A stretch of 64,000 nt of DNA. Origin: Phascolarctobacterium faecium DSM 14760 (GTDB lineage: Bacteria; Bacillota; Negativicutes; Acidaminococcales; Acidaminococcaceae). Below the pieces are notes generated by a model. That model was not told the DNA's origin. It ran no database searches and saw nothing but the letters and a program-made list of their open reading frames with translations. Of the stretch, positions 6,181 to 47,138 are shown piece after piece. Position 1 is the first letter of the stretch, and each line of letters starts with the position of its first letter. Where the stretch lies: contig NZ_QLTS01000001.1 of the NCBI RefSeq assembly GCF_003269275.1, forward strand, positions 124,001-188,000, given 5' to 3'. The position numbers and the translations under genes are program-made.

Positions 6181-6183
6181 ATA

Positions 6184-7176: not shown

Positions 7177-7222
7177 CAACATCAAGTCCCTTCATTAATC
7201 ATAATTCAACAAGCCGTTTTAA

Positions 7223-7849: not shown

Positions 7850-7897
7850 ACAAACCTCCATAATCGTCAATAGTAATATTATACAGTATTTTACGTG

Positions 7898-7937
7898 AAA
7901 AGAAAACGGAACCGCTGACAGCGATTCCGTCTTTTTT
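7898..7937 (-). terminator. Rho-independent terminator after the enoyl-CoA hydratase gene
   Basis: An imperfect hairpin ACGGAA-C-CGCT/AGCG-A-TTCCGT is followed in the minus direction by TTTTCTTTTC. It lies just downstream of the hydratase stop (7946) and separates that gene from the protease–trpS operon. The plus-side T6 run would also make it work in the other direction. Confidence 0.7.
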
Positions 7938-7945
7938 GTGAATTC

Positions 7946-8722: not shown

Positions 8723-8748
8723 ACTCGAAAAACCTCCTCTAAATTTTA

Positions 8749-10236
<1,488 letters not shown>

Positions 10237-10324
10237 TTACTATACTAGCACAGTGATTACACAAAATCAAGTAGTTTCTGTAATTTTTTTTACAATATCT
10301 TGTTTAGGAACCTTAAAAGATACT

Positions 10325-10372
10325 AAAAATGACCGATTTACTGCAACATTACAGCAATCCGGTCATTTTTTA
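10325..10372. terminator. Bidirectional terminator between codY and guaB
   Basis: AAATGACCG and CGGTCATTTTT form the arms of a long hairpin, with additional internal pairing (GCAA/TTGC). A-run and T-run flank it on the two sides, so it ends codY transcription on the minus strand. Confidence 0.8.
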
Positions 10373-10373
10373 T

Positions 10374-11147
10374 TTAAGAATTATTTTTACGCAGTTCTTC
10401 CAGCAGGAACTCATTTTTAATCCGTATATATGTTCCCTTCATCCCAAGCGATTTCGTTTCGATTAAACCGGCACTTTCGAATTTACGCAGAGCATTAACG
10501 ATTACAGAACGTGTAATCCCGACACGATCAGCAATTTTAGAAGCTACAAGCAAGCCTTCCATGCCTTTCAGTTCGCCGAGAATATTGACAATAGCTTCCA
10601 GTTCGGAATAAGAAAGCGTTGAAAAAGCAATCTGAACCATTGCTTTCTTACGCACTTCTTCTTCTACTTTAGCTGCGCGCTCGTGCAGAATCTCAACGCC
10701 GATAACAGTCGCAGCATATTCTGCCAGCAGCAGGTCTTCATCGTCGAAGGGTTTATCATATTTAGCTACGATCAAAGTACCAATACGTTCGCCGTTACCG
10801 TAAATAGGCACGATAGTAGTTTTTTTCTGATCAAAAAAGCATTTTGTACCTTTAACAAAGGAACATTCCTGATTTTTATGTTCAATATTTGAAACTGTTT
10901 CTTTCGCGTCCATAATAAAATCCAGATATTTTTGCGGGAAGTTTTTGACATCCAAAACCTGTTCGCGCATGATATCACATTCGAAATCATCCTGAAGAGC
11001 GCTGCCTTTAACGCCGCCCTTACGCCCAACGATATAAATGTTAGCGCCAATAACATCACGCAGCAGACGTGCGATAGCGTTATATTCTACTTTTTCCCCT
11101 CTTTGCAGCAATTTGTTGATTTTTCTTGTTTTCTCCAAAAGTTCCAT
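10374..11147 (-). CDS. codY: GTP-sensing transcriptional pleiotropic repressor CodY
   Basis: Global nutritional regulator of Firmicutes that binds DNA when branched-chain amino acids (and in Bacillus, GTP) are abundant. The 257 residues show the N-terminal GAF domain (1-155), a linker helix, and the C-terminal winged helix-turn-helix: ASKIADRVGITRSVIVNALR (about 202-221), identical in pattern to the Bacillus recognition helix. It lies 20 nt downstream of xerC. In Bacillus the order is xerC(codV)-hslV-hslU-codY; here hslVU are missing. Confidence 0.96.
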   Translation of the reverse strand: MELLEKTRKINKLLQRGEKVEYNAIARLLRDVIGANIYIVGRKGGVKGSALQDDFECDIMREQVLDVKNFPQKYLDFIMDAKETVSNIEHKNQECSFVKGTKCFFDQKKTTIVPIYGNGERIGTLIVAKYDKPFDDEDLLLAEYAATVIGVEILHERAAKVEEEVRKKAMVQIAFSTLSYSELEAIVNILGELKGMEGLLVASKIADRVGITRSVIVNALRKFESAGLIETKSLGMKGTYIRIKNEFLLEELRKNNS

Positions 11148-11167
11148 GATGATTCCTCCCTCAAATT

Positions 11168-12085
11168 TTAAGCACGCGGATGATTTTTCTGATATACAGA
11201 AGTAATACGTTCAGTCGTAATGTGAGTATAAATCTGCGTTGTGGACAGATTAGCATGTCCAAGCAATTCCTGAACAGCTCTTAAATCAGCACCATGATCT
11301 AAAAGATGTGTGGCAAAAGTATGCCTGATCGTGTGAGGACTGACTTTTTTCTGCATAGCCAGTTGGGTTATATATTTATCTAAGATCCTACGGACACTGC
11401 GATCCGTCAGCGGACCTCCCCTGCTATTAACAAAAACCTTGTCATGCGCCTCTGTTTTATTCTTTTCCATCAAAGCTCCGCGTGTAACTTGCAAATACTG
11501 CCGTACAGCCTGGCAGCAGGTATGCCCTATCGGTACGATACGTTCTTTATTGCCTTTGCCCAGCAGCAAAACATATTGGCTGCCAAGATCTATATTAGTC
11601 ACCATAAGTCCCACCAATTCGGAAACACGGCAACCTGTGGCATAGAGTAATTCTAATATCGCCTGATCTCTTAATCCCAGCGTATCTTTATCCGGTAAGG
11701 TTAATATCTCATTGATTTCCAGTTCTTCCAAAAATACAGGTAATCTTTTTTCCAGCTTTGGCGTTCTTACCTTAATAAAAGGATTTTGCTCCACATAATT
11801 TTCTCGCATTAAAAACTTATAAAAAGAACGCAGCGAAGAAATCCGCCTGGCAATCGTCGTACGCGCATACTTTTCTTTATTGAGCAGCGCTAAATAGGCA
11901 CGAATATCCAAAACTCCGATCTTCTGCCATTGAAAATCTTTCCCCAGCCGTTCTGCTAAAAAATTACTGAATAAACTTATATCAGCGGCATAATTTTTAA
12001 CAGTCAGCGGCGACGTGTTTTTTTCAACCTGCAGATACCTGAGAAACTTATCAACCATAGGATATTGCGATATTGACTCTGCCAT
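11168..12085 (-). CDS. xerC: Tyrosine recombinase XerC (chromosome dimer resolution)
   Basis: Site-specific tyrosine recombinase that resolves chromosome dimers at dif. A SAM-like N-terminal core-binding domain (about residues 8-95) is followed by the catalytic domain with Arg in ATGCRVSEL, the box HTIRHTFATHLLDHG, a second His in ELLGHANLSTT and the Tyr nucleophile in QIYTH. 305 residues is full length. Assigned XerC rather than XerD from its place between trmFO and codY. A 15-mer AATTTTTTGAATTTT at 12157-12171 in its leader resembles the CodY box with three mismatches; in AT-rich DNA this is weak. Confidence 0.9.
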   Translation of the reverse strand: MAESISQYPMVDKFLRYLQVEKNTSPLTVKNYAADISLFSNFLAERLGKDFQWQKIGVLDIRAYLALLNKEKYARTTIARRISSLRSFYKFLMRENYVEQNPFIKVRTPKLEKRLPVFLEELEINEILTLPDKDTLGLRDQAILELLYATGCRVSELVGLMVTNIDLGSQYVLLLGKGNKERIVPIGHTCCQAVRQYLQVTRGALMEKNKTEAHDKVFVNSRGGPLTDRSVRRILDKYITQLAMQKKVSPHTIRHTFATHLLDHGADLRAVQELLGHANLSTTQIYTHITTERITSVYQKNHPRA

Positions 12086-12212
12086 AATAAATCCCTTCTT
12101 CTTATGTAGACTTATAGTATCACAAACCAGGAAGCTATTTCAATAACCAAGTACTAAATTTTTTGAATTTTTTATTGAATACACAAAAATGTGTAAAAAT
12201 CTGAATATAAAC

Positions 12213-12242
12213 AAAAATAGCGGCCAATTTAATGTGCCGCTA
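12213..12242 (-). terminator. Terminator between the YczE-like gene and xerC
   Basis: The 7-bp stem TAGCGGC/GCCGCTA with an 11-nt loop is followed by TTTTTG on the minus strand. It ends the dprA-topA-trmFO-yczE run before xerC-codY, which therefore need their own promoter in 12086-12212. Confidence 0.75.
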
Positions 12243-12253
12243 CTCTTAATATT

Positions 12254-12913
12254 TTAATTTTTTATGCCTAAAGTCTGCCAGATGCCTTCGTGCTGAACTG
12301 ATTTTGCATCAAAGTGCAGCCAATTAAAAGTCAACTGCAAAATAGTACTGATGCCAAACGCAGCTATTATAGTACCTAAACCAACCTTCGCTCCCAGCAG
12401 CCAGCCAGCCAGCAAAACACTGCCTTCTATAAGGCCTCTGATCATACCAATCGGAACTTTCGGCAGCCGACGTTTTAACCCGATCATCAAAGAATCGCGC
12501 GGACCAGAGCCAAGTCCGGCACTGATATAAAAATAAGTGCCCAGACTGATGGAAAACTGCCCTAAAAACATTACGATGATTCCCAGCCAATAATTTTCTA
12601 TTAAAGGTACAGCATGATAGTACTGAAGAACATCAACACCAAAACCGATCAATACAGCATTAAGAATCGTACCTAATCCAAACCGCTCACCCATAGCAAC
12701 TGTCACTACTAAAATCAAAAGCCCACTCAAAACATTGATCGTCCCATAGGTCAATCCTGTAACATAGGAAACACCGATACCAAAGGCTTCCCATGGCGCC
12801 AAGCCGATATTAGCCTGGATGCCAAGGGTCAAACCAATGGAATACAGTGCCAGACCAAAGTGCAGCCGCAGCAGTTTAAAAAACAAGTTATGTTTGTCTT
12901 TCCAGTTCATCAC
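12254..12913 (-). CDS. YczE/YyaS-like integral membrane protein
   Basis: 219 residues with about five strongly hydrophobic segments and the family-like blocks LALYSIGLTLGIQANIGLAP, PWEAFGIGVS and SAGLGSGPRDSLMIGL. This is the YczE/YitT-like membrane family; Bacillus YczE has been linked to surfactin/bacillaene production, but the biochemical function is unknown. It lies 3 nt after trmFO, so it is cotranscribed with topA-trmFO, and it occupies a position where Bacillus has no such gene. No substrate can be inferred. Confidence 0.75.
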   Translation of the reverse strand: MMNWKDKHNLFFKLLRLHFGLALYSIGLTLGIQANIGLAPWEAFGIGVSYVTGLTYGTINVLSGLLILVVTVAMGERFGLGTILNAVLIGFGVDVLQYYHAVPLIENYWLGIIVMFLGQFSISLGTYFYISAGLGSGPRDSLMIGLKRRLPKVPIGMIRGLIEGSVLLAGWLLGAKVGLGTIIAAFGISTILQLTFNWLHFDAKSVQHEGIWQTLGIKN

Positions 12914-12916
12914 AGC

Positions 12917-14242
12917 TTACTTGATTATTTGCAGTACATCCTGCAAAGCATTCAATGAGCGCTCTGCAATCAGAGCGTTTTTCTCTTTTTTATTACGTAT
13001 CTTTTTACCTAAAGACGGCAGCAGTCCAAAATTAACATTCATCGGCTGAAAATCCCTGATTTCAGGATTGCTTATATAATGTGCTAATGCACCGTGAGCT
13101 GTTTCTTTAGGGAAGGTAATATCGGGAAGCTCTAAATAAGCCCGAGCGGTATGAATACCAGCCATCAAACCAGAAGCAGCCGATTCCACATAGCCTTCTA
13201 CACCTGTCATTTGCCCGGCAAAGTAAAATCTCGGCATCGCTTTAAAATTAAACTTATCATTCAATAATTTAGGCGAATTGATATAAGAGTTTTTGTGCAT
13301 TACACCATACCGGACAAATTCTGCATTTTCCAGCCCCGGAATCATACCAAAAACACGTTTTTGCTCAGGCCATTTTAAATGAGTCTGAAATCCGACCAGA
13401 TTATACAGCGAAGCAGCAGCATTATCCTGACGCAGCTGGACCACGGCGTAGGCCTGTTTACCAGTTCTCTGATCTACCAGTCCAACAGGCTTTAGTGGAC
13501 CGAAGCGCATGGTATCTTCACCGCGGCGAGCCATTTCTTCAATAGGCATACAGGCTTCAAAAAAAACTTCTTTTTCAAATTCTTTGACCGGAGCCAGCTC
13601 TGCTGTTCGTAAAGCTTCCCAAAACGCCAGATATTCTTCTTTGGTTTCAAACGGGCAATTCAAATAATCTGCATCACCTTTATCATAACGTGAGGCACGA
13701 TATACTTTTTCATAATTCAAGGACTCTGCGGTCACAATAGGCGCAGCGGCATCAAAAAAATGAAAATAATCTGCTTCTACCAGCTTTTTGATATTTTCAG
13801 CCAATACTGCTGACGTCAAAGGCCCGCTGGCAACTACAACATAACCTTCCAACTGCTGCAAATCTGTTACTTCTTCATAAACCACAGTAATTAAAGGGTG
13901 ATTTTTAATAATTTCCGTAATTCCCTGAGCAAAACCTTCCCTGTCGACAGCTAAGGCTCCGCCGGCTGGAATCTGATGTTTATCAGCCTGCTGCATGATC
14001 AGAGAATCAAGGCGGCGCATCTCTTCTTTAAGAAGACCGACAGCATTTTCCAAATTATTGGCACGCAGAGAATTGCTGCAAACAAGTTCCGCAAAGTCTG
14101 CAGTTTTATGCGCTTCGTCAGACTTTACCGGACGCATTTCATGCAAAATTACAGGAATGCCATATCTAATTATTTGATATGCTGCTTCACAGCCGGCTAA
14201 ACCTGCGCCGATAACATGAATCGGTTTATTTGCTTTTAGCAC
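12917..14242 (-). CDS. trmFO: Methylenetetrahydrofolate–tRNA-(uracil-5-)-methyltransferase
   Basis: Folate- and FAD-dependent enzyme making 5-methyluridine-54 in tRNA. The 441 residues begin with the FAD fold [18 protein letters not shown] (about residues 8-25) followed by LHEMRP, and include the conserved CSNSLR block. Start is a GTG at 14242, overlapping the last 17 nt of topA. The dprA-topA-trmFO order is standard for Firmicutes. Confidence 0.95.
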
Positions 14243-16343
14243 TTTTGCGTCCTGCCTTTCCTTTTTTTATATGCAAGCCATTTTCACAGGTTTCATTAGA
14301 ACAGTACAGTTTCTTATTGCCGTTCTTTTCAATTCGTTCCAGCATCACTTTACCGCATTTCGGACATTTTTCTTCTGTTGGCCTGTCCCATGATGTAAAT
14401 TTACATTCCGGATAATTGGCACAGCCATAAAAAATACGGCGCGTTTTTGTCTTGCGCTCGATAACTTCACCGCTGCATTCAGGGCACTTAACACCGATCT
14501 TATGCAAAATCGGCTTCGTGTTGCGGCATTCCGGAAAACCGGGACATGCCAGGAACTTACCAAAACGCCCCTGCTTTATTACCATCATACGTCCGCATTT
14601 TTCGCATTTCACATCACTGACTTCTACAGGAGCTTCTACTGCCTCAATTTCTTTGTCGGCTTTTTCCATCAATTTTGAAAACGGCACATAGAATTTTTCC
14701 AGTATTTTAGTCTTATCAGCTTTATGCTCAGCAATCTCATCAAGCTCTGTTTCTAATTCAGCAGAAAAAGGAATATCAATAATATCTTTGAAATAATTAG
14801 TCAGCATATCGACGATCATGAGCCCCAGCTCGGTAATCATCAGTTTTTTGCCTTCCTTAGCAATATAACCGCGGTCCAGAATAGTCTGGATAGTAGGCGA
14901 ATAAGTACTCGGCCGTCCAATACCTTTGTCTTCCAGCTCTTTTACCAGTGTCGCCTCAGTAAAGTGCGCCGGTGGTTCGGTGAAGTGCTGTTCAGCCGGT
15001 AAAAGTTTATATAATTCTACAGGCGTTTTAGCCTCCAGATAAGGAACGGTTTTATCCTTATCCTCGAGCAGGTCTTTTTTATCGCTTAGCTTTAAAAAGC
15101 CTTCAAACTTCAAAACAGAGCCCGTTGCACGCAATTGGTAATCGCCGGCGCCGATCAGCAAAGTAGTAACATCAAAAACAGCCGATGCCATCTGACTTGC
15201 AACAGCACGGTTCCAAATCAAAGAATAGAGCTTAAGCTGATCTTTATTCAGATGTTTTGCCATTTCCAGCGGTGTACGATGTACACTTGTGGGGCGGATC
15301 GCCTCATGTGCGTCCTGGGCATTTTTTTTACTTGAATAGCTGTTTGCATGTGAAGGCCTGAATTCTTTGCCAAACTCACTTTCAATATAACTGCGGATAT
15401 CAGCAGCAGCAACATCAGCAATACGTACTGAGTCGGTTCTCATATAAGTAATCAAACCGACAGAACCTTCTTTGCCCACAGCAACACCTTCGTACAGCTG
15501 TTGAGCTACCATCATCGTCTTTTTGGTAGTAAAATTCAGACGTTTAACAGCCTCCTGCTGCAGGCTGCTGGTAGTAAACGGAGGCAGCGGATTACGTTTA
15601 CGCTCTTTTTTTGTTGCTTCTTCAATGATATAAGCAGCTTTAGCCAAAGCTTTTTCTACAATATCCGCTTCCTCAGCAGTATGTATTTCCAGTTTTTTGC
15701 CCAGATGTTTGATAACCTCTGCTTCAAAAATAGGAGCTTTAGCTTTTTCACGCAGTTTAGCATTCAAAGTCCAATATTCTTTAGGAATGAAATCAGCGAT
15801 TTCTTTTTCACGGTCAGCAATGATTTTTACTGCTACCGATTGTACACGTCCGGCACTCAAGCCTTTTCTTATTTTACGCCATAACAAAGGACTAAGCTGA
15901 TAGCCTACGATACGATCAATAATACGACGTGCCTGTTGAGCATCAACTTTATCCAAATCAATCGGGCGCGGATTCTTCAAAGCATCTTTTATGGCACCAG
16001 AAGTGATTTCATGAAACTCAATCCGACAGTTTGCTTCCGGATCAACACCAAGGATATGCGCTAAATGCCAGCCAATAGCTTCGCCTTCGCGATCAGGGTC
16101 AGTTGCCAGATAAATTTTATCAGCTTTTTTGGCCAAAGTTTTCAATTCTTTAATCAATTCGCCTTTACCGCGAATATTAATATATTTAGGCTCAAAATCA
16201 TGTTCGATATCAACGCCAAACAAACTTTTTGGCAAATCGCGCAAATGTCCCATTGAAGCGCGGACAGTATAATTGCGCCCTAAAAATTTTTCAATAGTTT
16301 TTGACTTAGTAGGTGATTCCACGATTACTAAATTTTTCGTCAT
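14226..16343 (-). CDS. topA: DNA topoisomerase I
   Basis: Type IA topoisomerase that relaxes negative supercoils. The 705 residues start with the TOPRIM domain ([16 protein letters not shown] pattern, residues 6-21; [12 protein letters not shown] near 83-94). The active-site Tyr lies in [14 protein letters not shown] near 305. The C-terminus holds three four-cysteine zinc ribbons: [18 protein letters not shown] and CPKCGKVML, each with a second Cys pair about 20 residues later. The final stretch is Lys-rich. Confidence 0.96.
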
Positions 16344-35567: not shown

Positions 35568-35945
35568 TCAGGCAGCAGCCCAAAGGCAAATCTGCCGTAA
35601 CAGCTCTTGAAAATTAGCTTCCAGCATCGCTATCGCCTCAGCCGACGCATCATCGATATGCAGGCCTACGGTCACTGTAACAGTATGTCCAAGCATCCTG
35701 GCCAGTTCTAAGGCGGCTTTGCGTGCCAGCAGGTCTTCCTTATGCCCTGTCAGGCACAGTACCGATGCCGAAGAAGAAACTATATTTTTATCTTTTAAGC
35801 TGGGGCGCGGTACGCCTACGGCGACAGCACCGATATGCTGCTTTTCACCGCCGCCGATAACGACCGTCAGATCATCACCACAGCGTACTGCCACAGCTTC
35901 CAGCAAATATTCCTGCGCTCCCAAGGAAAAAGACTTTGCCTGCAT
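35568..35945 (-). CDS. LpdD-like protein (prenyl-FMN / decarboxylase accessory subunit)
   Basis: 125-residue homologue, by pattern, of LpdD, the accessory protein found with gallate decarboxylase LpdC/LpdB in lactobacilli. Matching features are YLLEAVAVRCGDDLTVVIGG, HIGAVAVGVPRP, a DLLARKAALELARMLG helix and VTVTVGLHIDDASAEAI. LpdD is thought to help handle the prenylated flavin made by the UbiX-type LpdB. Start is ATG 35945 (GGGGAGGAG upstream); the frame is open to 35993 inside ubiX. Only 1 nt separates it from the ubiX stop, so the two are cotranscribed. Assignment is from memory of the family pattern and needs a profile search. Confidence 0.75.
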   Translation of the reverse strand: MQAKSFSLGAQEYLLEAVAVRCGDDLTVVIGGGEKQHIGAVAVGVPRPSLKDKNIVSSSASVLCLTGHKEDLLARKAALELARMLGHTVTVTVGLHIDDASAEAIAMLEANFQELLRQICLWAAA

Positions 35946-35946
35946 T

Positions 35947-36510
35947 TTACTCCTCCCCTTTCCAGGCCACAAAATGCTTATAATCAATACCAAACTGCAT
36001 CAGGACCTTACCGATGATATGCTGCATTTGCTTTTCCACCGAATTTGACCCATTGTAAAAAGTCAGCATCGGCGGCACAACGACGCAGCCGTAATCAGCA
36101 GCTTCCTTGATATTACGCAGATGCAGCCTGCTCAAAGGCATTTCGCGCGGTACGATAACTACCTTCCTGCCCTCCTTTAGACAAACGTCAGCGGAACGCA
36201 GCAGCAGATTATCTGTATAGCCGGCTGCTATCCCGGCGACTGTTTTCATACTGCAGGGTATTACGATCATTCCATCAGTTTTAAACGAGCCGCTGGAAAT
36301 ACTGGCAGCCATATTTTTATTGCTGTGCACAACATCGGCCAGAGCGCATACATCCTGTACGGTAAGATCCGTTTCGCACTCAAAATTTTTAACTGCACCT
36401 TCAGTTACAACTAAGTGAACTTCACAATCTGGGAGCAATTTTAAAGCTTTCAACATCTCATAGCCCAAAATGACCCCGCTGGCTCCGGAAATACCAACGA
36501 TCAGACGCAT
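35947..36510 (-). CDS. ubiX: Flavin prenyltransferase UbiX (LpdB/BsdB type)
   Basis: Makes prenylated FMN, the cofactor of UbiD decarboxylases, from FMN and dimethylallyl phosphate. 187 residues, with the N-terminal GISGASGVILGYEML (about 5-19), IPCSMKTVAGIAAGYTDNLL and VPREMPLSRLHLRNIKEA. The only ubiX in the window, so presumably it serves both UbiD proteins here. It follows the permease gene by 21 nt and precedes the LpdD-like gene. Confidence 0.94.
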   Translation of the reverse strand: MRLIVGISGASGVILGYEMLKALKLLPDCEVHLVVTEGAVKNFECETDLTVQDVCALADVVHSNKNMAASISSGSFKTDGMIVIPCSMKTVAGIAAGYTDNLLLRSADVCLKEGRKVVIVPREMPLSRLHLRNIKEAADYGCVVVPPMLTFYNGSNSVEKQMQHIIGKVLMQFGIDYKHFVAWKGEE

Positions 36511-36531: not shown

Positions 36532-37920
36532 TTATTTATCAAACAAGCCTAACATCGACCAGTACGGAACTTCAATCAGTACAGTCATAACATAGATAAC
36601 GATAATGAACGGAATACCCAAACGGATCGTTTCCTTCTGTGAATACATACCGTTATCTTCACCCAAACCGACCAGCATGTTCAAATGCTGGAAAGGCAGC
36701 ACATAGTGAGAAGCAACTGCCGAATAAGCGAGCAGCGCCGGAACAAGCGGCGTAATACCCATCTGGCTGGTAAAGGTGATCATAGCTGGGATAATGATAC
36801 CCATAACTGCGATAACGCTGCCCAAAAGCATATGTATAATAATTGAAATAGTTGCGATAAACGCTGCCAGGATATATGGATCAGACGGAACTGTACCAGG
36901 CAATACTGTCTGGGCTATCCATGCATTCATACCGGTAGCGCCGCCAACACGTCCGATAGCAACAGCAGCAGTCAAAAAAATCAGTACATGCAGAGGAACA
37001 CCGCTCCAGCTTGCCGGCGTCAGAATTTCGCCAACCAAAGGCAGGCTCATTGCCATTGCGATAAACAAGGTTACCCAACCGATATCGACGCCATGCAGAG
37101 TATCAGTCATCCAAAGAATGATCGCTAAAGTTACCCAAAAGGCAGTCCGAAGCTCTTTCCCACTCATTGGACCCATAGCTGCTAATTTAGCACGCATTTC
37201 CTCTTTGTTGACCTGTACTTCCTGAGTTGGCTTAAATAGGAACAAAATCATAAAGCAGGTAATAATACTTACGATAATACTGGGTGGTCCCATCAATTTA
37301 AACCAGCCAAGCCAACCTAGAGAAACACCGGATGATTGTACTGCCAGCGGACTGATAGTAGCATCGCCAGTCAAAAAGATCAGGGAAACCGGAACAGAAG
37401 CGGCAAAAACAGTAAAGCCTATTTTAACTGCATCCACACGAGGAATATTCGCACTTTTAATAACGACCGCCATAACTGACATAATCAGGAAAGCACGCGG
37501 CCAGGGATGCGGAATCAAAAGACTGAGGATAAAAGTCAGAATAAAAATCGCCACGATAATACTCTTAAATGAAGTTACATAAGAAATGATAAATTTATAA
37601 GCGATACGTTCGCCAAGTCCAGATTCTTTAACTGCACCGGCAATCAAATAAGCGCCTACAATCAAAAACATCATTGGACCAGTCCAGGTCGAAAAAATGA
37701 GAGCAGGTTTTTCAACCCCAAAAACTGCGAGGAGTAATAGATAAAGACCGGAAGTATAACCCGGCTGAGTGATTTGAAAGCCCCAGAAAATTACGGTCAT
37801 AAAAGAAAGCGCCATACATATCTGACCATTTCTTGCAAGTCCTGGGATATCGGCCGTGCCGATCAACAGTGCTACGATAATGCCTAAAATAAACCCTATT
37901 CTCGCTTTATTCATTCCCAC
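36532..37920 (-). CDS. DASS/SLC13-family anion permease, putative aromatic-acid transporter
   Basis: 462-residue membrane protein with about 11-12 hydrophobic segments and DASS-type stretches (GPMMFLIVGAYLIAGAVKES, IPHPWPRAFLIMSVMAVV, MLLGSVIAVMGIIIPAM). DASS carriers move di- or tricarboxylates and related anions, many with Na+. Linkage to ubiX, an LpdD-like protein and LysR genes suggests hydroxybenzoate or gallate uptake, as for the permeases of lactobacillar gallate loci; this is inference. Start is GTG 37920 (AGGAGG 8 nt before); ATG 37914 is the alternative. First gene of the permease-ubiX-lpdD operon. Confidence 0.85.
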   Translation of the reverse strand: MGMNKARIGFILGIIVALLIGTADIPGLARNGQICMALSFMTVIFWGFQITQPGYTSGLYLLLLAVFGVEKPALIFSTWTGPMMFLIVGAYLIAGAVKESGLGERIAYKFIISYVTSFKSIIVAIFILTFILSLLIPHPWPRAFLIMSVMAVVIKSANIPRVDAVKIGFTVFAASVPVSLIFLTGDATISPLAVQSSGVSLGWLGWFKLMGPPSIIVSIITCFMILFLFKPTQEVQVNKEEMRAKLAAMGPMSGKELRTAFWVTLAIILWMTDTLHGVDIGWVTLFIAMAMSLPLVGEILTPASWSGVPLHVLIFLTAAVAIGRVGGATGMNAWIAQTVLPGTVPSDPYILAAFIATISIIIHMLLGSVIAVMGIIIPAMITFTSQMGITPLVPALLAYSAVASHYVLPFQHLNMLVGLGEDNGMYSQKETIRLGIPFIIVIYVMTVLIEVPYWSMLGLFDK

Positions 37921-38353: not shown

Positions 38354-39253
38354 ATGAATCTTAATCAATTGAAATACTTTCTGGCCATTGTCAAAACAGG
38401 TAGCTTTTCAAATGCTGCCGATGATATGTATATCTCCCAATCGTCAATGTCCAAACAGATAAAAGCCCTGGAAACAGAACTGGGTGTCGATCTCTTCAAA
38501 CGCGAACATTCCAAGGTCTATCTGACTGAAATAGGTGCGGAATTTGCCAAATATGCTGAAATGACCATCAAACAACACAACGATATGCTGCTTTATTTAG
38601 ATGAATTTGCTACCAAGAAGTCTAATACTATTCGTTTTGGGTCAATACCTGTAGTATCCTCCTATGGTATCAGCGCTCAGATAGCCCAATTTACAACCAA
38701 CTATAAACCCGATGTTAACGTCGTTATCGATATGCACGAGACCAACCAGCAGGAAGTTATGAAAGAGCTGTTTGACGGAGCCATCGACATTGCGCTGATA
38801 CGTACTGATTATCTTGATGAAGTAGATGTCTTTGACTGTATTCCATATAAGAAAGATATTTTTGTTCTGGTCTGCAATCAAAATCATCCTTTAAGTACAA
38901 AAGAAGCTGTTTCCCTGAATGACCTGATAAAATACCCACTTTCACTTTTAGATACCTCATCGGTCATTTATACGATCGTTATAAAAGCATTTGAACGCCA
39001 CGGCATCGAGAAAAAAACAAAATGTCTGACAACAAGGCACAAGATCCTTATGGAGATCCTGCAGACGGCGCCAAATATTTCGCTGCTGCCGCTCAGTCTC
39101 GTTGACCTGACACTTTTCCCTCATCTCTGTACCGTTCCTCTAGTTGAAGAACTCACAAGCGATGTGGCGCTGATAAAACTCAAAAAACGCCGCCTCAATA
39201 AAATTACCAAGGATTTTTGGATCTATTGGCAAAAATATTTTCAAATGCAATAA
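38354..39253 (+). CDS. LysR-family transcriptional regulator (permease-linked)
   Basis: 299 residues. N-terminal winged helix (MNLNQLKYFLAIVKTGSFSN, residues 1-20; YISQSSMSKQIKALETELG about 31-49), then a periplasmic-binding-like effector domain (IRFGSIPVVSSYGISAQIAQ, SLLDTSSVIYTIVIKAFERH). Divergent from the permease-ubiX-lpdD operon, with LysR boxes between. It probably regulates that operon and the second ubiD in response to an aromatic acid or product. 60% or more pattern similarity to the convergent LysR downstream suggests a duplication (visual estimate). Confidence 0.92.
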   Translation: MNLNQLKYFLAIVKTGSFSNAADDMYISQSSMSKQIKALETELGVDLFKREHSKVYLTEIGAEFAKYAEMTIKQHNDMLLYLDEFATKKSNTIRFGSIPVVSSYGISAQIAQFTTNYKPDVNVVIDMHETNQQEVMKELFDGAIDIALIRTDYLDEVDVFDCIPYKKDIFVLVCNQNHPLSTKEAVSLNDLIKYPLSLLDTSSVIYTIVIKAFERHGIEKKTKCLTTRHKILMEILQTAPNISLLPLSLVDLTLFPHLCTVPLVEELTSDVALIKLKKRRLNKITKDFWIYWQKYFQMQ

Positions 39254-39284
39254 ATAAAAAACCACTGCTCAGCAGTGGTTTTTT
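39254..39284. terminator. Bidirectional terminator between the two convergent lysR genes
   Basis: AAAAACCACTGC/GCAGTGGTTTTTT with loop TCA, immediately after the first LysR stop and at the end of the second. Confidence 0.92.
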
Positions 39285-40200
39285 ATTGCTGATATTCCTG
39301 ATATTTACCGCAAAGGAACTTCCAAAATTTTTCTGTCGTCGCATTCAAAGTTTTTTCCTTACGTTTAACGATGTAAACATTACTGTAGATTGGCATCGTC
39401 AGAGGGACATATTTCAGCCCTTCAATGCTGTGTCCTTCCTCCAGCATCCGTTTTGTAAAAAAAGTAATACCAACATTATTGGCCACCATCGAAAACACAT
39501 TCCTATGCCGTGTCATCGTTGCCGCCACATTACATTCCTTGTTCACTTTACGCAGCTTTTCCATTAAAATCCGGTAAATTTCCGATTTAGGAGAAATCAG
39601 AATGATTTTTTCATCCCGCAGCATCGAAAAATCAAATTCCTGCAGCTGTGCCAGCTCACTTTCCTGCGAACAAATCAGGCCGATCTCGTCTGTCATAAAC
39701 AGCCGATGCTCATATTCGGGCAGCTGGTCAAAACCGTCGCGCACAAAAGCAAAATCCACCTTATCGTTTTTTAAAAGCATCAGTACGTCTTTCTGTTCTT
39801 CTTCCAGAATATTATAATTAACGACCTGCCTGCGATTTTTATTGACTTTCTGAAACTCAGAAAGCAGCGTTGATATCTTATAGGAACTGACGATTGGAAT
39901 CGAAGCGAATTTCACTTCTTCGATCGGCGTATCTTCAAAAGCCATCAGCTCCTGGTGCATTTCGTTTTTTGTCTCCAGCAGCTGCAGCGCATAATCATAA
40001 AAACACTGGCCTGCTTCCGTCAGAGTAATCTTATTACCGGTCCTGTTAAACAACACTACCCCAAGCTCGGTTTCCAAAGCTTTGATCTGCTTGGACAGCG
40101 AAGACTGAGAAATGTATTCTTCCAGTGCTGCCGACCAAAAACTGCCATGCTTGACAATAGCGACAAAATATCTCAACTGATTAAAATTCATTTCTCTCAC
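39283..40200 (-). CDS. LysR-family transcriptional regulator (lpdC-linked)
   Basis: 305 residues. Helix-turn-helix MNFNQLRYFVAIVKHGSFWS and YISQSSLSKQIKALETELGV; effector domain with VKFASIPIVSSYKISTLLSE. It is similar in pattern to the upstream LysR but lies convergent with it and divergent from the LpdC/AroY-type gene, whose intergenic region contains TATTGG-N10-CCAATA and GCTATT-TAG-AATAGC dyads. Probably an activator of that decarboxylase. The ATG here is the third codon of a frame open to 40200; MREMNF and MNFNQL are both possible (40200 or 40191). Confidence 0.9.
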   Translation of the reverse strand: MREMNFNQLRYFVAIVKHGSFWSAALEEYISQSSLSKQIKALETELGVVLFNRTGNKITLTEAGQCFYDYALQLLETKNEMHQELMAFEDTPIEEVKFASIPIVSSYKISTLLSEFQKVNKNRRQVVNYNILEEEQKDVLMLLKNDKVDFAFVRDGFDQLPEYEHRLFMTDEIGLICSQESELAQLQEFDFSMLRDEKIILISPKSEIYRILMEKLRKVNKECNVAATMTRHRNVFSMVANNVGITFFTKRMLEEGHSIEGLKYVPLTMPIYSNVYIVKRKEKTLNATTEKFWKFLCGKYQEYQQ

Positions 40201-40576: not shown

Positions 40577-42055
40577 ATGACTACTAAAATCAATGATTTA
40601 CGTTCCGCACTCGACTATCTGCGTACCATCCCCGGACAGTTGGTGGAAACCAACGTCGAGGCCGATCCACGTGCCGAGATCTCCGGTATTTACCGCTATG
40701 TTGGTGCCAAAGGCACCGTTAAACGCCCGACTCGCTTAGGACCTGCCATGATCTTCAATAATGTTAAAGGCCATCCCGGCGCTAAAGTCGCTATCGGCGT
40801 ACTTTCAAGCCGTGCCCGTGTCGGGCACCTGCTGGGATGTGAACCCGAAAAGCTGGGCTTTCTTTTAAAAGACTCCGTATCCACCCCGATCGCTCCGGTA
40901 GTTGTAAGTGCTGACCAGGCACCCTGTCAGGAAGTAGTGCATCTGGCAACAGAAGAGGGCTTTGATATCCGCAAGCTGATCCCAGCCCCTACCAATACTG
41001 AAGAAGACGCCGGCCCATATGTAACCATGGGGCTTTGCTACGGCACCGATCCTGAAACCGGCGATACCGATATTACTATCCACCGCCTCTGCCTGCAGGG
41101 CAAAGACGAAATATCCATGTATTTCGTTCCAGGCCGTCACTTAGACGTATTCCGTCAAAAATACGAAAAAGCCGGCAAACCGATGCCGATCTCCATCAGT
41201 ATCGGCGTTGACCCGGCCATCGAGATCGCCGCCTGCTTCGAACCACCTACAACTCCACTCGGCTTCAATGAATTGAGCATAGCCGGCAGTATACGGGGCG
41301 AAGGCGTGCAAATGGTACAGTGCAAAACTATCAACGAAAAGGCTATCGCCCGTGCAGAATATGTTATCGAAGGCGAACTGCTGCCTGATGTCCGCGTCCG
41401 CGAAGACCAAAACAGCAATACCGGTAAAGCAATGCCGGAATTTCCGGGCTATACCGGCGCTATGAAACCAGCAATCCCGCTGATCAAAGTCAAAGCAGTT
41501 ACCCACCGCCGCGACCCAATCATGCAATCCTGCATCGGTCCTTCCGAAGAACACGTCAATATGGCAGGTATACCGACTGAAGCATCTATCCTCGGCATGA
41601 CGGAAAAAGCACTGCCAGGCAATGTCAAAAACGTATATGCCCACTGCTCCGGCGGCGGCAAATATATGGCCGTTATCCAATTCGTCAAAAAAGCTCCGCC
41701 TGATGAAGGCCGTCAAAGACAGGCTGCTCTGCTAGCCTTCTCTGCTTTCTCGGAACTGAAACACGTTATCCTGGTAGACGACGATGTTGATCTGTTTGAT
41801 ACCGACGACGTACTGTGGGCTTTGAATACCCGTTTCCAGGGCGATGTCGACGTTATCACTATCCCAGGCGTTCGCTGCCATCCGCTCGATCCTTCCCAAT
41901 CCCCCGAATTTTCGCCTTCGATCCGCGATGTAGGTATATCCTGCAAAACTATTTTTGACTGCACCGTACCTTTCGGGCTTAAAGAGCACTTCCAGCGCAG
42001 CAAATTTAAAGAAGTCGATCCAGCCAAATGGGTTCCTGAATTATTCAAAAAATAA
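40577..42055 (+). CDS. lpdC: UbiD-family decarboxylase, LpdC/AroY type (gallate/protocatechuate decarboxylase)
   Basis: 492 residues. Prenyl-FMN-dependent nonoxidative decarboxylase. It resembles Lactobacillus LpdC and Klebsiella AroY: GTVKRPTRLGPAMIFNNVKG, TNTEEDAGPYVTMG, TIHRLCLQGKDE, PTTPLGFNELSIAG and RVREDQNSNTGKAMPEFPGY. In ordinary UbiD the catalytic stretch is EGPFGEFPG; the E-x11-E form here is the LpdC/AroY clade variant and should give the catalytic Glu pair. C-terminus PSIRDVGISCKTIFDCTVPF. Product would be pyrogallol or catechol plus CO2. The substrate is inferred from clade, not shown. It stands alone between a LysR-controlled promoter and a strong terminator. Confidence 0.87.
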   Translation: MTTKINDLRSALDYLRTIPGQLVETNVEADPRAEISGIYRYVGAKGTVKRPTRLGPAMIFNNVKGHPGAKVAIGVLSSRARVGHLLGCEPEKLGFLLKDSVSTPIAPVVVSADQAPCQEVVHLATEEGFDIRKLIPAPTNTEEDAGPYVTMGLCYGTDPETGDTDITIHRLCLQGKDEISMYFVPGRHLDVFRQKYEKAGKPMPISISIGVDPAIEIAACFEPPTTPLGFNELSIAGSIRGEGVQMVQCKTINEKAIARAEYVIEGELLPDVRVREDQNSNTGKAMPEFPGYTGAMKPAIPLIKVKAVTHRRDPIMQSCIGPSEEHVNMAGIPTEASILGMTEKALPGNVKNVYAHCSGGGKYMAVIQFVKKAPPDEGRQRQAALLAFSAFSELKHVILVDDDVDLFDTDDVLWALNTRFQGDVDVITIPGVRCHPLDPSQSPEFSPSIRDVGISCKTIFDCTVPFGLKEHFQRSKFKEVDPAKWVPELFKK

Positions 42056-42059
42056 TAGT

Positions 42060-42102
42060 AAAAGAAAAATACCTGAAGCATTTATGCTTCAGGTATTTTT
42101 CT
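42060..42102. terminator. Bidirectional terminator after the LpdC-type gene
   Basis: AAAAATACCTGAAGCA/TGCTTCAGGTATTTTT, 16-bp stem with loop TTTA. It serves the convergent LpdC gene and the orphan of the MoxR operon. Confidence 0.93.
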
Positions 42103-42739
42103 TTTGTATACCTAATGCCAGCAGCTTCACTGCCTGCCACTGTTTGTGTCTCTCCGGACTTACTTCCCTGTCCCAAAATTCATACTTCAACTGGAAGAAA
42201 TACTCCTCATAAAAACAGCTGACAGCAGATTGCCGCGAATAGTCTATTTTTAACGCTGCTAAAACGTCCAACAAACCGGCGCCAAAATATGGCAGCAACT
42301 CTTTTACTTTCCGTTTATACGTCCTGGTCTCCTCCTGAAAGCGAGCATAACACAAAGCAAACAGCGCCAGCTCCAGCAGCTCCTTAAAAGTAATATCGTC
42401 GCCGCTTACGGCAGCCGTCAGTACTGTTTCATAAATCAAACTCCGTACCGCTGCACTGGCGTGAAAAAACAAAAGAAATTCGTTCAGCGCTGTGCTGGAC
42501 TGCGGCGGTACATATCCCTCAGCAAGTTCACCACCACGCACATATGGTGCTAAAGCTGCGAAATTGCCGCTGCTCACAAAAGTCTGACCCATTTCCAGCA
42601 AAATTTCCTCCGGCGTCAACTGTAACCCATTCAGCAATCCACACGCCTCACCGTCCTGCAGATGTCGATAGATTTTCAACCCCTGCCGCTCCTCGCAGCC
42701 TGTAACCAGGCCATGCGGGCACTTCAACAAACCTTCCAT
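42089..42739 (-). CDS. Hypothetical protein of the MoxR–VWA operon
   Basis: 216 residues, not recognised. Two cysteines stand near the N-terminus (LKCPHGLVTGCEERQGLKIY, about residues 5-24); the rest is largely helical with LNEFLLFFHASAAVRSLI and LELALFALCYARFQEETRT. No signal peptide. Start chosen at ATG 42739, just one nt after the VWA TGA stop (TGATATG); the open frame extends to 42778 inside the VWA gene. Tight coupling to the VWA protein suggests a third component of the same complex. Confidence 0.7.
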   Translation of the reverse strand: MEGLLKCPHGLVTGCEERQGLKIYRHLQDGEACGLLNGLQLTPEEILLEMGQTFVSSGNFAALAPYVRGGELAEGYVPPQSSTALNEFLLFFHASAAVRSLIYETVLTAAVSGDDITFKELLELALFALCYARFQEETRTYKRKVKELLPYFGAGLLDVLAALKIDYSRQSAVSCFYEEYFFQLKYEFWDREVSPERHKQWQAVKLLALGIQKKNT

Positions 42740-42740
42740 A

Positions 42741-44288
42741 TCAGTATGTCGCCCCCTTTTCGATAATCCTGCGGGCAAGAAACCTGTGCAGATTTATGAT
42801 TGTCGTATGCTCATAGCCATATTTATCCTCTTCGTCAAAAGTTATCTTCACCATCTCAATCTGATTCCTGCGGCAATAATCGTTCAACTCCCTTTCGGCC
42901 TGCTCACGGTCGTTGATCTCTCCATCCGATAATAGAAACAACAATCTCCGCTTCCCCTTCAGCACCTGTTCCTGCAGCAACCGCACCGCCGGCAGCAGAT
43001 TAGTCCCCCCTCCAGACAACGGTACGATCGAAGTCTGCTCGGCTTTATCAATAAAACTTTTACGTACTTTGCCCCCGCCCTCAAAATCTATTATCAGTGT
43101 TCTGATACCGTCAAAATTATTAACTGCCGCCAAAATCTCGATCAGCGCTTCTGCATATTCACGTTCAAATCGGTACGTACTGCCCGAAACATCGCGTATG
43201 ATCATAATATCTACCGATACCTTACGCCGCAAGTAATACTGATAAACCCTGCTTTCCTCCGCTGTTTTAGAGGCCAGATACGCTTCCTGCTGCTTTTTCA
43301 GGTTAACGTCGCCGTCATAAGCACCAATGATCTTCATCGACGTAAAGCTCTGCTTAAAAATATATTCCAGCTCGCCGATCTCGCGCCTGTATTTCCGTAC
43401 TGTATCCAAAAAGAACTGTGAAGTGTCGCCCGACCTGCTTACCATACGCCCTACGCCTGCCAGCTTACCTGTCTGTGATGCGGCATTCTGCATTTTTGCT
43501 TTCAGTTCACGGATATGCTCTTTCCGTACAATCTCGTATAATTCTTCTTCGCTGAACACCTTCAGCACCGACATAGAGCCGGCAGTTCCTGCCGCAGCAG
43601 CTTTCTGCTCCCACACAGGTGTGATTTCTGACGTCATCCGCAATCCCTGCAGCCATTCTGTCAGCAAATCTGTCACCACGATCAAATTCTGCAGCTCCGT
43701 CCGTACCGCAGTCAAGGCCAGAGGTACCATAAAATCATAAAAACTACTGTCACCCTGCGGCTCGATGATACCGTACTTCAAAAACACCTGTAAAGCTTCC
43801 AGCTGACCACGCTGCGGCAAATACTTCACAAGCTGCTCCAACTCCACATCCTGTGTCGTCATATTCAGCAGTGTCAGCAGCTTGCCAAACTCAGGCAGCT
43901 CACGCGCCAGCTTATACTCACAGAACGTCCTAAACAGACTTCTATAGATGCATCGGTATAAAATATCCTTCTTAAGTCGCTCCAAGTGCCTGTACCCCTC
44001 CGCCCCCGTAAACAACGCCGTATTTTCATACCGCAAAACACTCAGTTCACTTATAACAAATGCATCAGTAAAACTCTCTGACGACAGTAGCCCATGCAAA
44101 GCTGAATGCTGCCATGCCTCCAGCAAACATTCGCAGTTGACAGCCAGCACATACCCGTCCTCACGACTTCCAGTACAGCAGCACAGCTGTCCGCATTCTG
44201 TGCCAACAGAGTCTTGATATGCAGCTGCATCAGCATAATATTCTATTTTAAAAGCCAGTTCCGGGCATAATACCGCAAAATTTTCCAT
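42741..44288 (-). CDS. VWA-domain protein partner of MoxR
   Basis: 515 residues. A helical N-terminal ~340 residues is followed by a von Willebrand A domain with intact MIDAS: DVSGST (near 364), GGGTNLLPA (about 425) and SDGEIND (about 453). MoxR–VWA pairs such as RavA–ViaA and CbbQ–CbbO act as AAA+ chaperones that fit cofactors or remodel metalloenzymes. Start is ATG 44288 with AAGGTGG 5 nt upstream; the frame is open to 44318 inside moxR. No signal peptide, so cytoplasmic. Confidence 0.85.
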   Translation of the reverse strand: MENFAVLCPELAFKIEYYADAAAYQDSVGTECGQLCCCTGSREDGYVLAVNCECLLEAWQHSALHGLLSSESFTDAFVISELSVLRYENTALFTGAEGYRHLERLKKDILYRCIYRSLFRTFCEYKLARELPEFGKLLTLLNMTTQDVELEQLVKYLPQRGQLEALQVFLKYGIIEPQGDSSFYDFMVPLALTAVRTELQNLIVVTDLLTEWLQGLRMTSEITPVWEQKAAAAGTAGSMSVLKVFSEEELYEIVRKEHIRELKAKMQNAASQTGKLAGVGRMVSRSGDTSQFFLDTVRKYRREIGELEYIFKQSFTSMKIIGAYDGDVNLKKQQEAYLASKTAEESRVYQYYLRRKVSVDIMIIRDVSGSTYRFEREYAEALIEILAAVNNFDGIRTLIIDFEGGGKVRKSFIDKAEQTSIVPLSGGGTNLLPAVRLLQEQVLKGKRRLLFLLSDGEINDREQAERELNDYCRRNQIEMVKITFDEEDKYGYEHTTIINLHRFLARRIIEKGATY

Positions 44289-44298
44289 AACAGCCACC

Positions 44299-45318
44299 TT
44301 AAATAATTGAAGACTCAAGCTTCTCCTTCACCATCTGCAAATCATAAAAACCCAGGTCTACATCCAGATAATACATAAAGCTCTGCAAAATGATCTCTTT
44401 AAAAGTTCCGATTCCTATCGCGCTCAAGGCCTGCTCCAGCTCCATGATCCGCCTGTCTGTCAAATCAGTAACGCTTGCCGCCTCACAGCCCAACACCCTT
44501 TTTGCCAGATACCTCTTGATGCTTTCAACATTCCGATTATCATAAAAATAAGAATCTATCATCGTCTGCCGCCACTCTGGGCGCCGCAAAAGCTCCAAAT
44601 TGCACAGAACTACGGCAATAGCCGCATTGCGTACCGACAGTGGATAAGTATTGCTGCGTACCTCGCGCATCAACTCAATAATATAACGCTTTAGGCTTAC
44701 CGGTACAACATCGTTGGCACGGTACTCCTCCGCTACTATCTGTTCAACTATCAAAAGCTCATCTTCCGCCGTCGGATAATCGAAATAAAATGAAACCAGA
44801 CGCTGAGCAAAGCTCTGCGGCAGCTTAACGTTGCCGGAATATCTGCTGTCATTCGAACAGAATACGATCCGAAAATCCTCGTGTGCATAAATCATCTTAT
44901 CGCCGATCGCCGTTACCGAAGTCCGGTCCAGTATACTGTTGAACATCAGTAAAATCTCCTGTACCGAATGTGTCGCCTCATCGACGATGATAATGCCGCC
45001 ACGCTCCATACAATCTGCCACAACTCCGTTCTTAACTGCCAGACTGCCGTTTTCCAGCCTTAGTCCCAAAATCAGGCTTGTTTTCGTCTGTTCTGGACTC
45101 AGCTGCACATAATAGGCTGGCACATTTTTAGCCAGCGCATACTGCCTGGCCAGGTTCATCGCGATAATACTTTTGCCGCTGCCCGAAGGTCCCACGATAT
45201 AAAGCGGCCACCTGGTATGCTCAAGCACCGCGTAGCAGCGTGCCAAAAGCTGCGTCCCATCCTCGCCTACTATTTTTGGTATCTGCTGCAGATCAAGCTG
45301 TGTTTTCAGCTCTGCCAT
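44299..45318 (-). CDS. MoxR-family AAA+ ATPase
   Basis: 339 residues. Walker A GPSGSGKS (43-50), Walker B GIIIVDEAT (about 108-116), sensor 1 IVFCSND (151-157), and an Arg in FAQRLVSFYF as in other MoxR proteins. A C-terminal lid follows. First gene of the moxR-vwa-orphan operon, behind a terminator after bsdD. MoxR proteins are substrate-remodelling ATPases; the client here is unknown, with the neighbouring UbiD enzymes as candidates. Confidence 0.92.
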   Translation of the reverse strand: MAELKTQLDLQQIPKIVGEDGTQLLARCYAVLEHTRWPLYIVGPSGSGKSIIAMNLARQYALAKNVPAYYVQLSPEQTKTSLILGLRLENGSLAVKNGVVADCMERGGIIIVDEATHSVQEILLMFNSILDRTSVTAIGDKMIYAHEDFRIVFCSNDSRYSGNVKLPQSFAQRLVSFYFDYPTAEDELLIVEQIVAEEYRANDVVPVSLKRYIIELMREVRSNTYPLSVRNAAIAVVLCNLELLRRPEWRQTMIDSYFYDNRNVESIKRYLAKRVLGCEAASVTDLTDRRIMELEQALSAIGIGTFKEIILQSFMYYLDVDLGFYDLQMVKEKLESSII

Positions 45319-45340: not shown

Positions 45341-45371
45341 TAAAAAAAGCGGGGGAGCTAACTCCCCCGCC
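45341..45371 (-). terminator. Terminator between bsdD and moxR
   Basis: GCGGGGGAG/CTCCCCCGC (9-bp stem, loop TTAG on the minus strand) followed by T7. Very strong; it separates ubiD2-bsdD from moxR, though partial read-through is possible. Confidence 0.95.
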
Positions 45372-45404: not shown

Positions 45405-45611
45405 TTATTTCTTTAAAGGTGGAACCGGCGGAATTGGCTGTAAATTAGGAATATCTTCCGGTTTTAGTTTAAATACATCATGTACATGGATTTCTTCGGT
45501 AGAACGCCAGGAATAACTGCAGGTATCGCAGACATAAACTTCCCAAACATCGCCAACCGGGGATTTAGTCATAACTCTTACTGTATCAGCATCACAACGC
45601 GGACATTTCAT
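45405..45611 (-). CDS. bsdD: BsdD/VdcD-type small subunit of hydroxyarylic acid decarboxylase
   Basis: 68 residues. The two Cys pairs CPRCDAD and CDTCSYSW, with KSPVGDVWEVYVCDTC between, match BsdD/VdcD of Bacillus and Streptomyces. A Pro-rich C-terminus (PIPPVPPLKK) follows. In BsdBCD the B subunit is UbiX and C is UbiD; D is a zinc-ribbon-like accessory subunit. It follows the second ubiD by 30 nt and ends just before the terminator. Confidence 0.93.
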   Translation of the reverse strand: MKCPRCDADTVRVMTKSPVGDVWEVYVCDTCSYSWRSTEEIHVHDVFKLKPEDIPNLQPIPPVPPLKK

Positions 45612-45641: not shown

Positions 45642-47084
45642 TCATTGATTTTTTTGTGCAGCCATAAAGTCTCTGAAAATAGCTTCCCATTTCGGGGTAG
45701 CCGGAGACGGTTTCAACAATTCAACAGAACGCGGATTCGGTTCCGGAGCGACCGGAGTAGTTGCATCGATGATCAGCTTGTCATGCATACCTGCCGGTAC
45801 CGAAGACGGATCAAGCGGCATACCTGCACAATTCGGGATGATCGCAACATCCTTACTGGGTTTGACGCGGGTAGTAAGCGCCCACATAACCTGCTCCAGA
45901 TTAAACGGATCGACAAACTCATCGACAACGATAATGACCTTGGAATAAGGCATACCATGCGGAGTAGACAGCAGACGGAAAGCAACACCCTTACCGAAGC
46001 CGCCGTAACGGACCTTCGTAGAAATGATAACGCCGATACCATGAGTATACATAGCATTGACTGCCTGCACTTCAGGCATAGTAGCTTTCAGCTGTTTGTA
46101 CAGAGGAACACTGGTATTAAGAGCCATCAGGTAATCGATCTCAGTCCAGGGCATACCAAGATACAAGTTTTCAAATATCGGATTGGTACGATGTGTGATA
46201 TGAGTTATCTTGATCTCGCACTGATTCCTGGCGCCGGAATAAGAGCCAGGGAACTCGCCGAACGGGCCTTCGCAGGTACGAACGCGCGGCATAATGTAGC
46301 CTTCCAGAATAACTTCAGCATGAGCAGGAACATACAAATGCTCAGCAGTATCAGCTTTAGTAATTTCAGTAGGAACACCATCCTGCAAGGCGCCGACGAA
46401 TTCATATTCATTCTGGTCGTAATTAACAGGAGTGCTTGCCATAAAGCTTACAAGCGGAGTATTGCCCAGAGCGATAGCTACCGGTAAAGGCTCGTTGACT
46501 TCTTCTGCCTTAGCAAGCTGGATGGCGATATCATGAAAAGGCAAAGCCTGGATGCCAATACGGTCGATATCTTTGACCTGGATACGGTAAATACCGACAT
46601 TCTGCTTATCCAGATTATCAGGTTCAGCCGGATCGCCGGTAACAACGGCTGCTTTAGACAGGAAGAAACCACCGTCCTGATCATTGATTCTGTAAAGAGG
46701 CAAAACATCAAATAAATTGATATTTTCGCTGATGGTATTTTCCTTACACATTGCTTTTTCACGTGGAAGAATTACTGGCGGTACCGGGAATTTGTCCCAG
46801 CGGCGGTTCAATTCATGGAATTGTTCCTTTACAGGAGTGTCTTTAGGCATTCCCATCATCAAAGCATGATTAGCCCAGGAACCGTGAACGTTGGTTACAA
46901 CAGAATATTTATAACCTTTCACCTTCTCAAACAAAACAGCCGGTTTTTTATCCATATTAGCGCAGGCACGTCCGGCAGCGCCAATATCAGGTTCCGGATC
47001 GACCTCATCTTTAACGCGGATCAGCTGCCCCTCTTCTTCTAATGTTTTTAAAAACTCTCTCAAATCTTTGTAAACTTTTGCCAT
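45642..47084 (-). CDS. bsdC: UbiD-family decarboxylase, BsdC/VdcC type
   Basis: 480 residues. Prenyl-FMN-dependent hydroxyarylic acid decarboxylase with the canonical motif EGPFGEFPGSYSGARNQCEI, plus YRIQVKDIDRIGI and GMPLDPSSVPAG. Residues RTCEGPFGEF hold the catalytic Glu pair. BsdC/VdcC enzymes act on 4-hydroxybenzoate, vanillate and similar acids; the exact substrate is not known here. Start is ATG 47084 with AAAGGAGG; the frame is open to 47105. Its promoter shares the permease's regulatory architecture. Confidence 0.9.
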   Translation of the reverse strand: MAKVYKDLREFLKTLEEEGQLIRVKDEVDPEPDIGAAGRACANMDKKPAVLFEKVKGYKYSVVTNVHGSWANHALMMGMPKDTPVKEQFHELNRRWDKFPVPPVILPREKAMCKENTISENINLFDVLPLYRINDQDGGFFLSKAAVVTGDPAEPDNLDKQNVGIYRIQVKDIDRIGIQALPFHDIAIQLAKAEEVNEPLPVAIALGNTPLVSFMASTPVNYDQNEYEFVGALQDGVPTEITKADTAEHLYVPAHAEVILEGYIMPRVRTCEGPFGEFPGSYSGARNQCEIKITHITHRTNPIFENLYLGMPWTEIDYLMALNTSVPLYKQLKATMPEVQAVNAMYTHGIGVIISTKVRYGGFGKGVAFRLLSTPHGMPYSKVIIVVDEFVDPFNLEQVMWALTTRVKPSKDVAIIPNCAGMPLDPSSVPAGMHDKLIIDATTPVAPEPNPRSVELLKPSPATPKWEAIFRDFMAAQKNQ

Positions 47085-47138
47085 GTTTTTGACCTCCTTT
47101 GTCATCGTTTCACTTGGTAAGGTTTACCCCTTGTCTAT

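Follow-up and report, generated by a model that had tools for sequence, protein, structure and literature searches.

The window, the 64-kb stretch of DNA from Phascolarctobacterium faecium that was analysed, contains an 11.5-kb cluster in which three adjacent genes, for an AAA+ ATPase, a VWA-domain protein and a protein of no known family (here the C-P-H protein), are found together with two ubiD paralogues, vdcD, ubiX, an lpdD-type gene, a DASS-family transporter and two LysR regulators (Table 1). The initial annotation had described the first three genes as a tight trio with an intact MIDAS downstream of bsdC-bsdD, and this description holds: vdcD and ubiD-1 lie upstream on the same (minus) strand, and the intergenic gaps are 10 bp (AAA+/VWA) and 1 bp (VWA/216-aa gene), with a longer alternative ORF of the VWA gene opening with TTG at 44318. 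The second paralogue, ubiD-2, is on the opposite strand and convergent with the trio. The strong terminator that had been placed between the trio and bsdD is real and stops ~30 bp before the AAA+ gene. The ubiX, lpdD, DASS and two LysR genes of the cluster had not been mentioned in that annotation. By NCBIfam, the ubiD-1 product is VdcC (759 bits vs. a cut-off of 650) and the small subunit is VdcD (88 bits vs. 30). Base composition gives no sign that the window locus was acquired recently.

Table 1 Features of the trio locus in the 64-kb window.
Feature	Position	Strand	Remarks
lpdD-type gene (PF21758), prFMNH2 chaperone family	35568..35945	-	PMC10865409
ubiX, flavin prenyltransferase	35947..36510	-	
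DASS-family anion transporter	36532..37920	-	
LysR regulator 1	38354..39253	+	
LysR regulator 2	39283..40200	-	
ubiD-2, second UbiD paralogue	40577..42055	+	
Third gene (C-P-H protein), no known family	42089..42739	-	216 aa
VWA-domain partner gene	42741..44288	-	515 aa from ATG
AAA+ ATPase gene, CbbQ/NorQ/midasin-like (AAA_5)	44299..45318	-	339 aa
Intrinsic terminator between vdcD and AAA+ gene	45348..45371	-	10 pairs, then T7
vdcD/bsdD, zinc-ribbon-like decarboxylase subunit	45405..45611	-	68 aa; NCBIfam VdcD
ubiD-1 (vdcC/bsdC), proposed client	45642..47105	-	NCBIfam VdcC

The 2.3-Mb source genome (G000) has five UbiD and three LpdD genes, and a trio accompanies just one of its three LpdD clusters. 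A second cluster of UbiD-2, DASS, ubiX and lpdD (G000:C6:30000-49900) contains a perfect tandem repeat of >4 kb (L082 ~5860-14730) with a truncated DASS gene in one copy and a run of N; this repeat is probably an assembly artefact.

The AAA+ protein matches AAA_5 in Pfam (1.7e-15) and has Walker A (GPSGSGKS) and Walker B (IIIVDEA) motifs as well as a conserved tail, IILQSFMYYLDVDLGFYD. Its PDB matches are midasin, CbbQ and NorQ, with CbbQ and NorQ as the closest solved bacterial relatives. An AAA_5-type ATPase with both Walker motifs adjoining a VWA gene is expected of MoxR/CbbQ-NorQ pairs, and this is what is present here. The protein is not a RavA or AAA_3-type MoxR, given that AAA_3 is not among its Pfam matches and the locus is not among the AAA_3 matches of the genome. 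Midasin and GvpN share sequence similarity with it in the AAA+ domain, but the trio has no gas-vesicle or ribosome context, and assignment to GvpN was rejected on a score far below the NCBIfam cut-off (47.7 vs. 266.8 bits).

The partner protein consists of a helical N-terminal part, a linker and a C-terminal VWA domain (CoxE/NorD-like) that keeps its MIDAS (D366-x-S368-x-S370, T429 and D455; the T429 position is a serine in two VWA relatives). Its VWA_CoxE match is below the curated cut-off, as are those of six of the seven relatives at E up to 1, and the protein, used as a single query sequence against 84,980 genomes, gave no match. VWA domains come first among the PDB matches of the predicted model, and NorD (9qhf) is one of the top matches (probability 0.98, 18% identity), although this weak model (pLDDT 51) supports no more than the VWA call.

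These features invite comparison with two known systems. NorQ-NorD likewise combines a CbbQ/NorQ-type AAA+ protein with a VWA protein of the same layout (helical N-terminus, linker, C-terminal VWA), whereas identity is low and the trio differs in having a third gene, linkage to UbiD, VdcD and LpdD, and no NOR nearby. For NorQD, it has been proposed that the linker of the VWA partner is twisted and stretched so that iron enters the client (PMC13036017). CbbQ-CbbO is similarly an AAA+/VWA pair with a single dedicated client of the carboxylase/decarboxylase type encoded in the same cluster, and CbbQO is reported to reactivate inhibited Rubisco (PMC4660213). In contrast, the trio AAA+ protein has no CbbQ_C match at E 0.1 (Pfam), the putative client is unrelated to Rubisco, and there is a third subunit. 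The trio was therefore not classed as CbbQ/NorQ proper, as it is without CbbQ_C and, in the loci examined, without linkage to Rubisco or NOR genes.

The third protein has no match in Pfam, NCBIfam, PADLOC or the PDB, and an AlphaFold model of its relative from a Synergistaceae genome (L026; pLDDT 71) gave no significant fold match. It is characterised by an invariant C7-P8-[H/C]9 ... H26 ... C33 pattern, with the remainder helical. At all ten loci with a readable third gene, the N-terminal motif is kept as C-P-[H/C], ~17 residues, H, 6-7 residues, C. The single Cys-for-His swap, in G380, is a change that a metal site would tolerate, making the motif a probable metal site as judged from its sequence. 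That the protein mimics VdcD was ruled out by the lack of profile similarity (hhalign probability 0.5%). By analogy with iron insertion by NorQD (PMC13036017), the trio could be a metal insertase that supplies the decarboxylase with Mn2+ or with VdcD's zinc, the metal being carried by the C-P-H protein. The invariant Cys/His motif with its swap in G380 would fit such a role, as would the Mn2+ that UbiD enzymes require for prFMN binding (PMC10865409). We nevertheless regard this explanation as rather improbable, because relatives that have this UbiD-1 and VdcD evidently cope without a trio, and VdcD and the C-P-H protein bear no resemblance at the profile level.

To what extent is the trio tied to this operon elsewhere? 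A first survey of 61 genomes, widened to 380 genomes of the source's class, found the VWA gene in four of the 61 besides the source genome; the third gene was detected in three of these four, and the fourth locus is interrupted by a contig end. Across the 380 class genomes there are five trios, the source genome included. An AAA+ alignment scan of 84,980 species genomes added L026 (Synergistaceae), L028 (Syntrophomonadaceae) and L029 (Syntrophomonas), and three further genomes, G597 and the diverged pair G583 and G584, came from a search of Synergistia; more trios may exist, since the scan uses short exact peptide patterns. Close relatives of the trio are present in seven other genomes from three distant lineages. 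In six of the seven (G005, G019, G037, G040, L026 and L028), the trio comes directly after lpdD on the same strand. The complete order ubiD1-vdcD-DASS-ubiX-lpdD-trio is found in G005, G019, G037 and L026, and as far as the contigs extend it is followed in G040 (DASS-ubiX-lpdD-trio; L020/L024) and L028 (ubiX-lpdD-trio). No terminator was seen in the ~45 bp gap between lpdD and the AAA+ gene of L026. The Syntrophomonadaceae AAA+ gene shifts frame right after the P-loop (L028 862-1030), reflecting either a sequencing error or a broken gene. Relative to these genomes the arrangement in the window is reshuffled, yet the trio is still located behind ubiD1-vdcD, and relatives (46-51%) of the LysR regulator encoded at 38354-39253 adjoin the operon or the trio in other genomes. 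G597 has the trio with a LysR gene at one locus and, at another, a complete ubiD1-vdcD-DASS-ubiX-lpdD operon whose UbiD-1 is 89% identical to that of the window. The trios of G597 and L026 share their neighbours (Nudix, LysR, V-type ATPase), and the presence of the same chromosomal flanks in two separate assemblies argues against contamination. Both Synergistaceae genomes have the Nudix gene immediately after the trio (L026 13025-13552, L126 8604-9131); by eye its product reads as isopentenyl-diphosphate isomerase-like, and it could supply the prenyl donor of UbiX. In a tree, the AAA+ proteins from UbiD-linked trios form one clade (support 99/99). The gene identities, the conserved module and its genetic linkage to the ubiD1-vdcD-ubiX-lpdD operon are thus established directly, and conserved linkage with ubiD, ubiX and lpdD is what would be expected of a UbiD accessory factor. 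DASS adjoins ubiX-lpdD in every close-type-operon contig that reaches that far, which raises the question of whether the trio acts on a different protein encoded in the cluster, for instance this transporter, or whether a transporter or regulator is under the control of the AAA+ ring. This seems very improbable to us, as the source genome and G020 each have a close DASS paralogue that accompanies UbiD-2, ubiX and lpdD where there is no trio.

Whether the trio co-occurs with ubiD more than expected, a check suggested in the initial annotation, can be answered for the 380 class genomes. VdcC-type UbiD, defined at 59-100% identity (next matches ≤36%), is present in 14 of them, four of which have the trio; the sole trio genome scored without it is G040, where the contig is cut. 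The association exceeds expectation per genome (Fisher p = 5.7e-6) and per genus (3/12 vs. 0/90, p = 0.0013), and LpdD is found in 5/5 trio genomes vs. 61/380 overall (p = 9e-5), all three values being uncorrected for ancestry and transfer. This UbiD-1 type occurs without a trio in about ten class genomes, two of which, G020 and G004, were confirmed to carry the whole operon. With most VdcC-type genomes lacking it, the trio would be an accessory rather than an obligate insertase. The very sparse distribution (5/380), matched to one operon type, also makes a general stress chaperone of the RavA-ViaA kind, positioned here by coincidence, the least probable of the explanations considered, even though MoxR-VWA pairs are widespread (PMC3893208).

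Much of the association could be explained by a single recruitment and operon transfer, without any function. In the UbiD-1 tree, the trio-bearing rows and G020 form one group (73/91), and a topology that unites the trio-bearing rows to the exclusion of G020 is not rejected by the AU test (p-AU 0.074). G020 is a close relative of the trio-bearing G019 and G005 in this tree and has apparently lost the trio, making one recruitment and one loss the simplest history. In UbiD-1, trio-bearing enzymes can be told from trio-less ones at a single column, too little for use as trio-specific residues. The trio could accordingly have been joined to the operon once by chance and spread with it by horizontal transfer while serving another client: a single recruitment may suffice for the grouping with G020, and the 88-89% identity of Synergistaceae UbiD-1 to that of the window speaks for operon transfer between distant lineages. 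However, the trio has been kept through internal rearrangement in the window and when unlinked in G597, and the module is intact although its AAA+ proteins are only 64-67% identical, compared with 87% for UbiD-1. We therefore consider such hitchhiking unlikely. The dedicated trio-UbiD link, for which the initial annotation had adjacency as sole evidence, is now stronger through the conserved operon, the retention through rearrangement and the co-presence when unlinked, whereas the notion that UbiD needs the trio is at odds with the trio-less genomes.

The diverged trios (L029, G583 and G584; AAA+ 50-56% identical) present a different picture. In Syntrophomonas (L029), which has one distant UbiD and in which LpdD was not detected, the trio stands by itself. 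In G583 and G584 (Synergistia), an AAA+/VWA/C-P-H trio is located behind a microcompartment operon (L127 1-7357, L128 1-7230; BMC-H, PduL, EutN, RnfC-like and tandem BMC), and no UbiD was detected in either genome. By eye, this operon also includes an adenosyltransferase-like gene. Trios at unrelated loci without UbiD, which had been named as grounds for dismissing the link, are thus seen only among diverged relatives and not among close ones. MoxR-VWA pairs are known to change clients, and the same is suggested for this module family by the diverged trios, which occur in the absence of VdcC-type UbiD and in G583 and G584 follow a microcompartment operon.

The link to the VdcC-type decarboxylase operon suggests that the trio switches on or repairs UbiD/VdcC. 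In our judgement the odds are even that the trio works as a MoxR-VWA remodelling machine specific to one client, here the VdcCD-type UbiD, with the metal-motif protein as its third subunit. VdcCD/UbiD as the client is fairly likely, while we infer complex formation and the loading or repair chemistry. VdcD is integral to active VdcCD, and LpdD brings prFMNH2 to UbiD, aiding activation (PMC10865409); given its placement beside LpdD and VdcD, the trio would most simply act on the UbiD-VdcD holoenzyme. In this scheme ATP would drive a ring of the AAA+ protein, the client would be engaged through the VWA protein as adaptor, and handling of client or metal would fall to the C-P-H subunit. In anaerobic bacteria, the trio would spend ATP to open or remodel the holoenzyme, allowing entry of Mn2+ and of prFMNH2 made by UbiX and carried by LpdD, or alternatively exit of a dead-end species, for example the prFMN radical, for which an oxidant-based rescue is described in the case of PhdC (PMC13040415). 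LpdD, which is encoded in the trio's own cluster, and PhdC are likewise UbiD activation helpers, but an ATPase is described for neither. Against a UbiD client speak the trio-less UbiD-1 genomes, the diverged trios elsewhere and the strong terminator between vdcD and the trio in the window.

The literature searched describes no AAA+ factor for UbiD and yielded no paper in which MoxR and UbiD occur together, but as subscription papers are mostly absent from it this is only weak evidence of novelty. It is tentative, and somewhat doubtful, that the trio represents the first AAA+/VWA activase or repair machine for a prenylated-flavin UbiD and belongs to a wider three-part MoxR-VWA-CPH module with varied clients, including a microcompartment. 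Many UbiD enzymes are not obtainable in active form, and the authors of the LpdD study conclude that exploiting UbiD fully takes more than co-expressed UbiX (PMC10865409). How prFMN is matured in the absence of oxygen is a standing question; it becomes directly testable with a naturally linked ATPase module, which can be expressed together with VdcCD and LpdD. If our proposal is true, anaerobes would have a means of loading or rescuing the prFMN cofactor, and the MoxR-VWA group would gain a new class of client and a third subunit.
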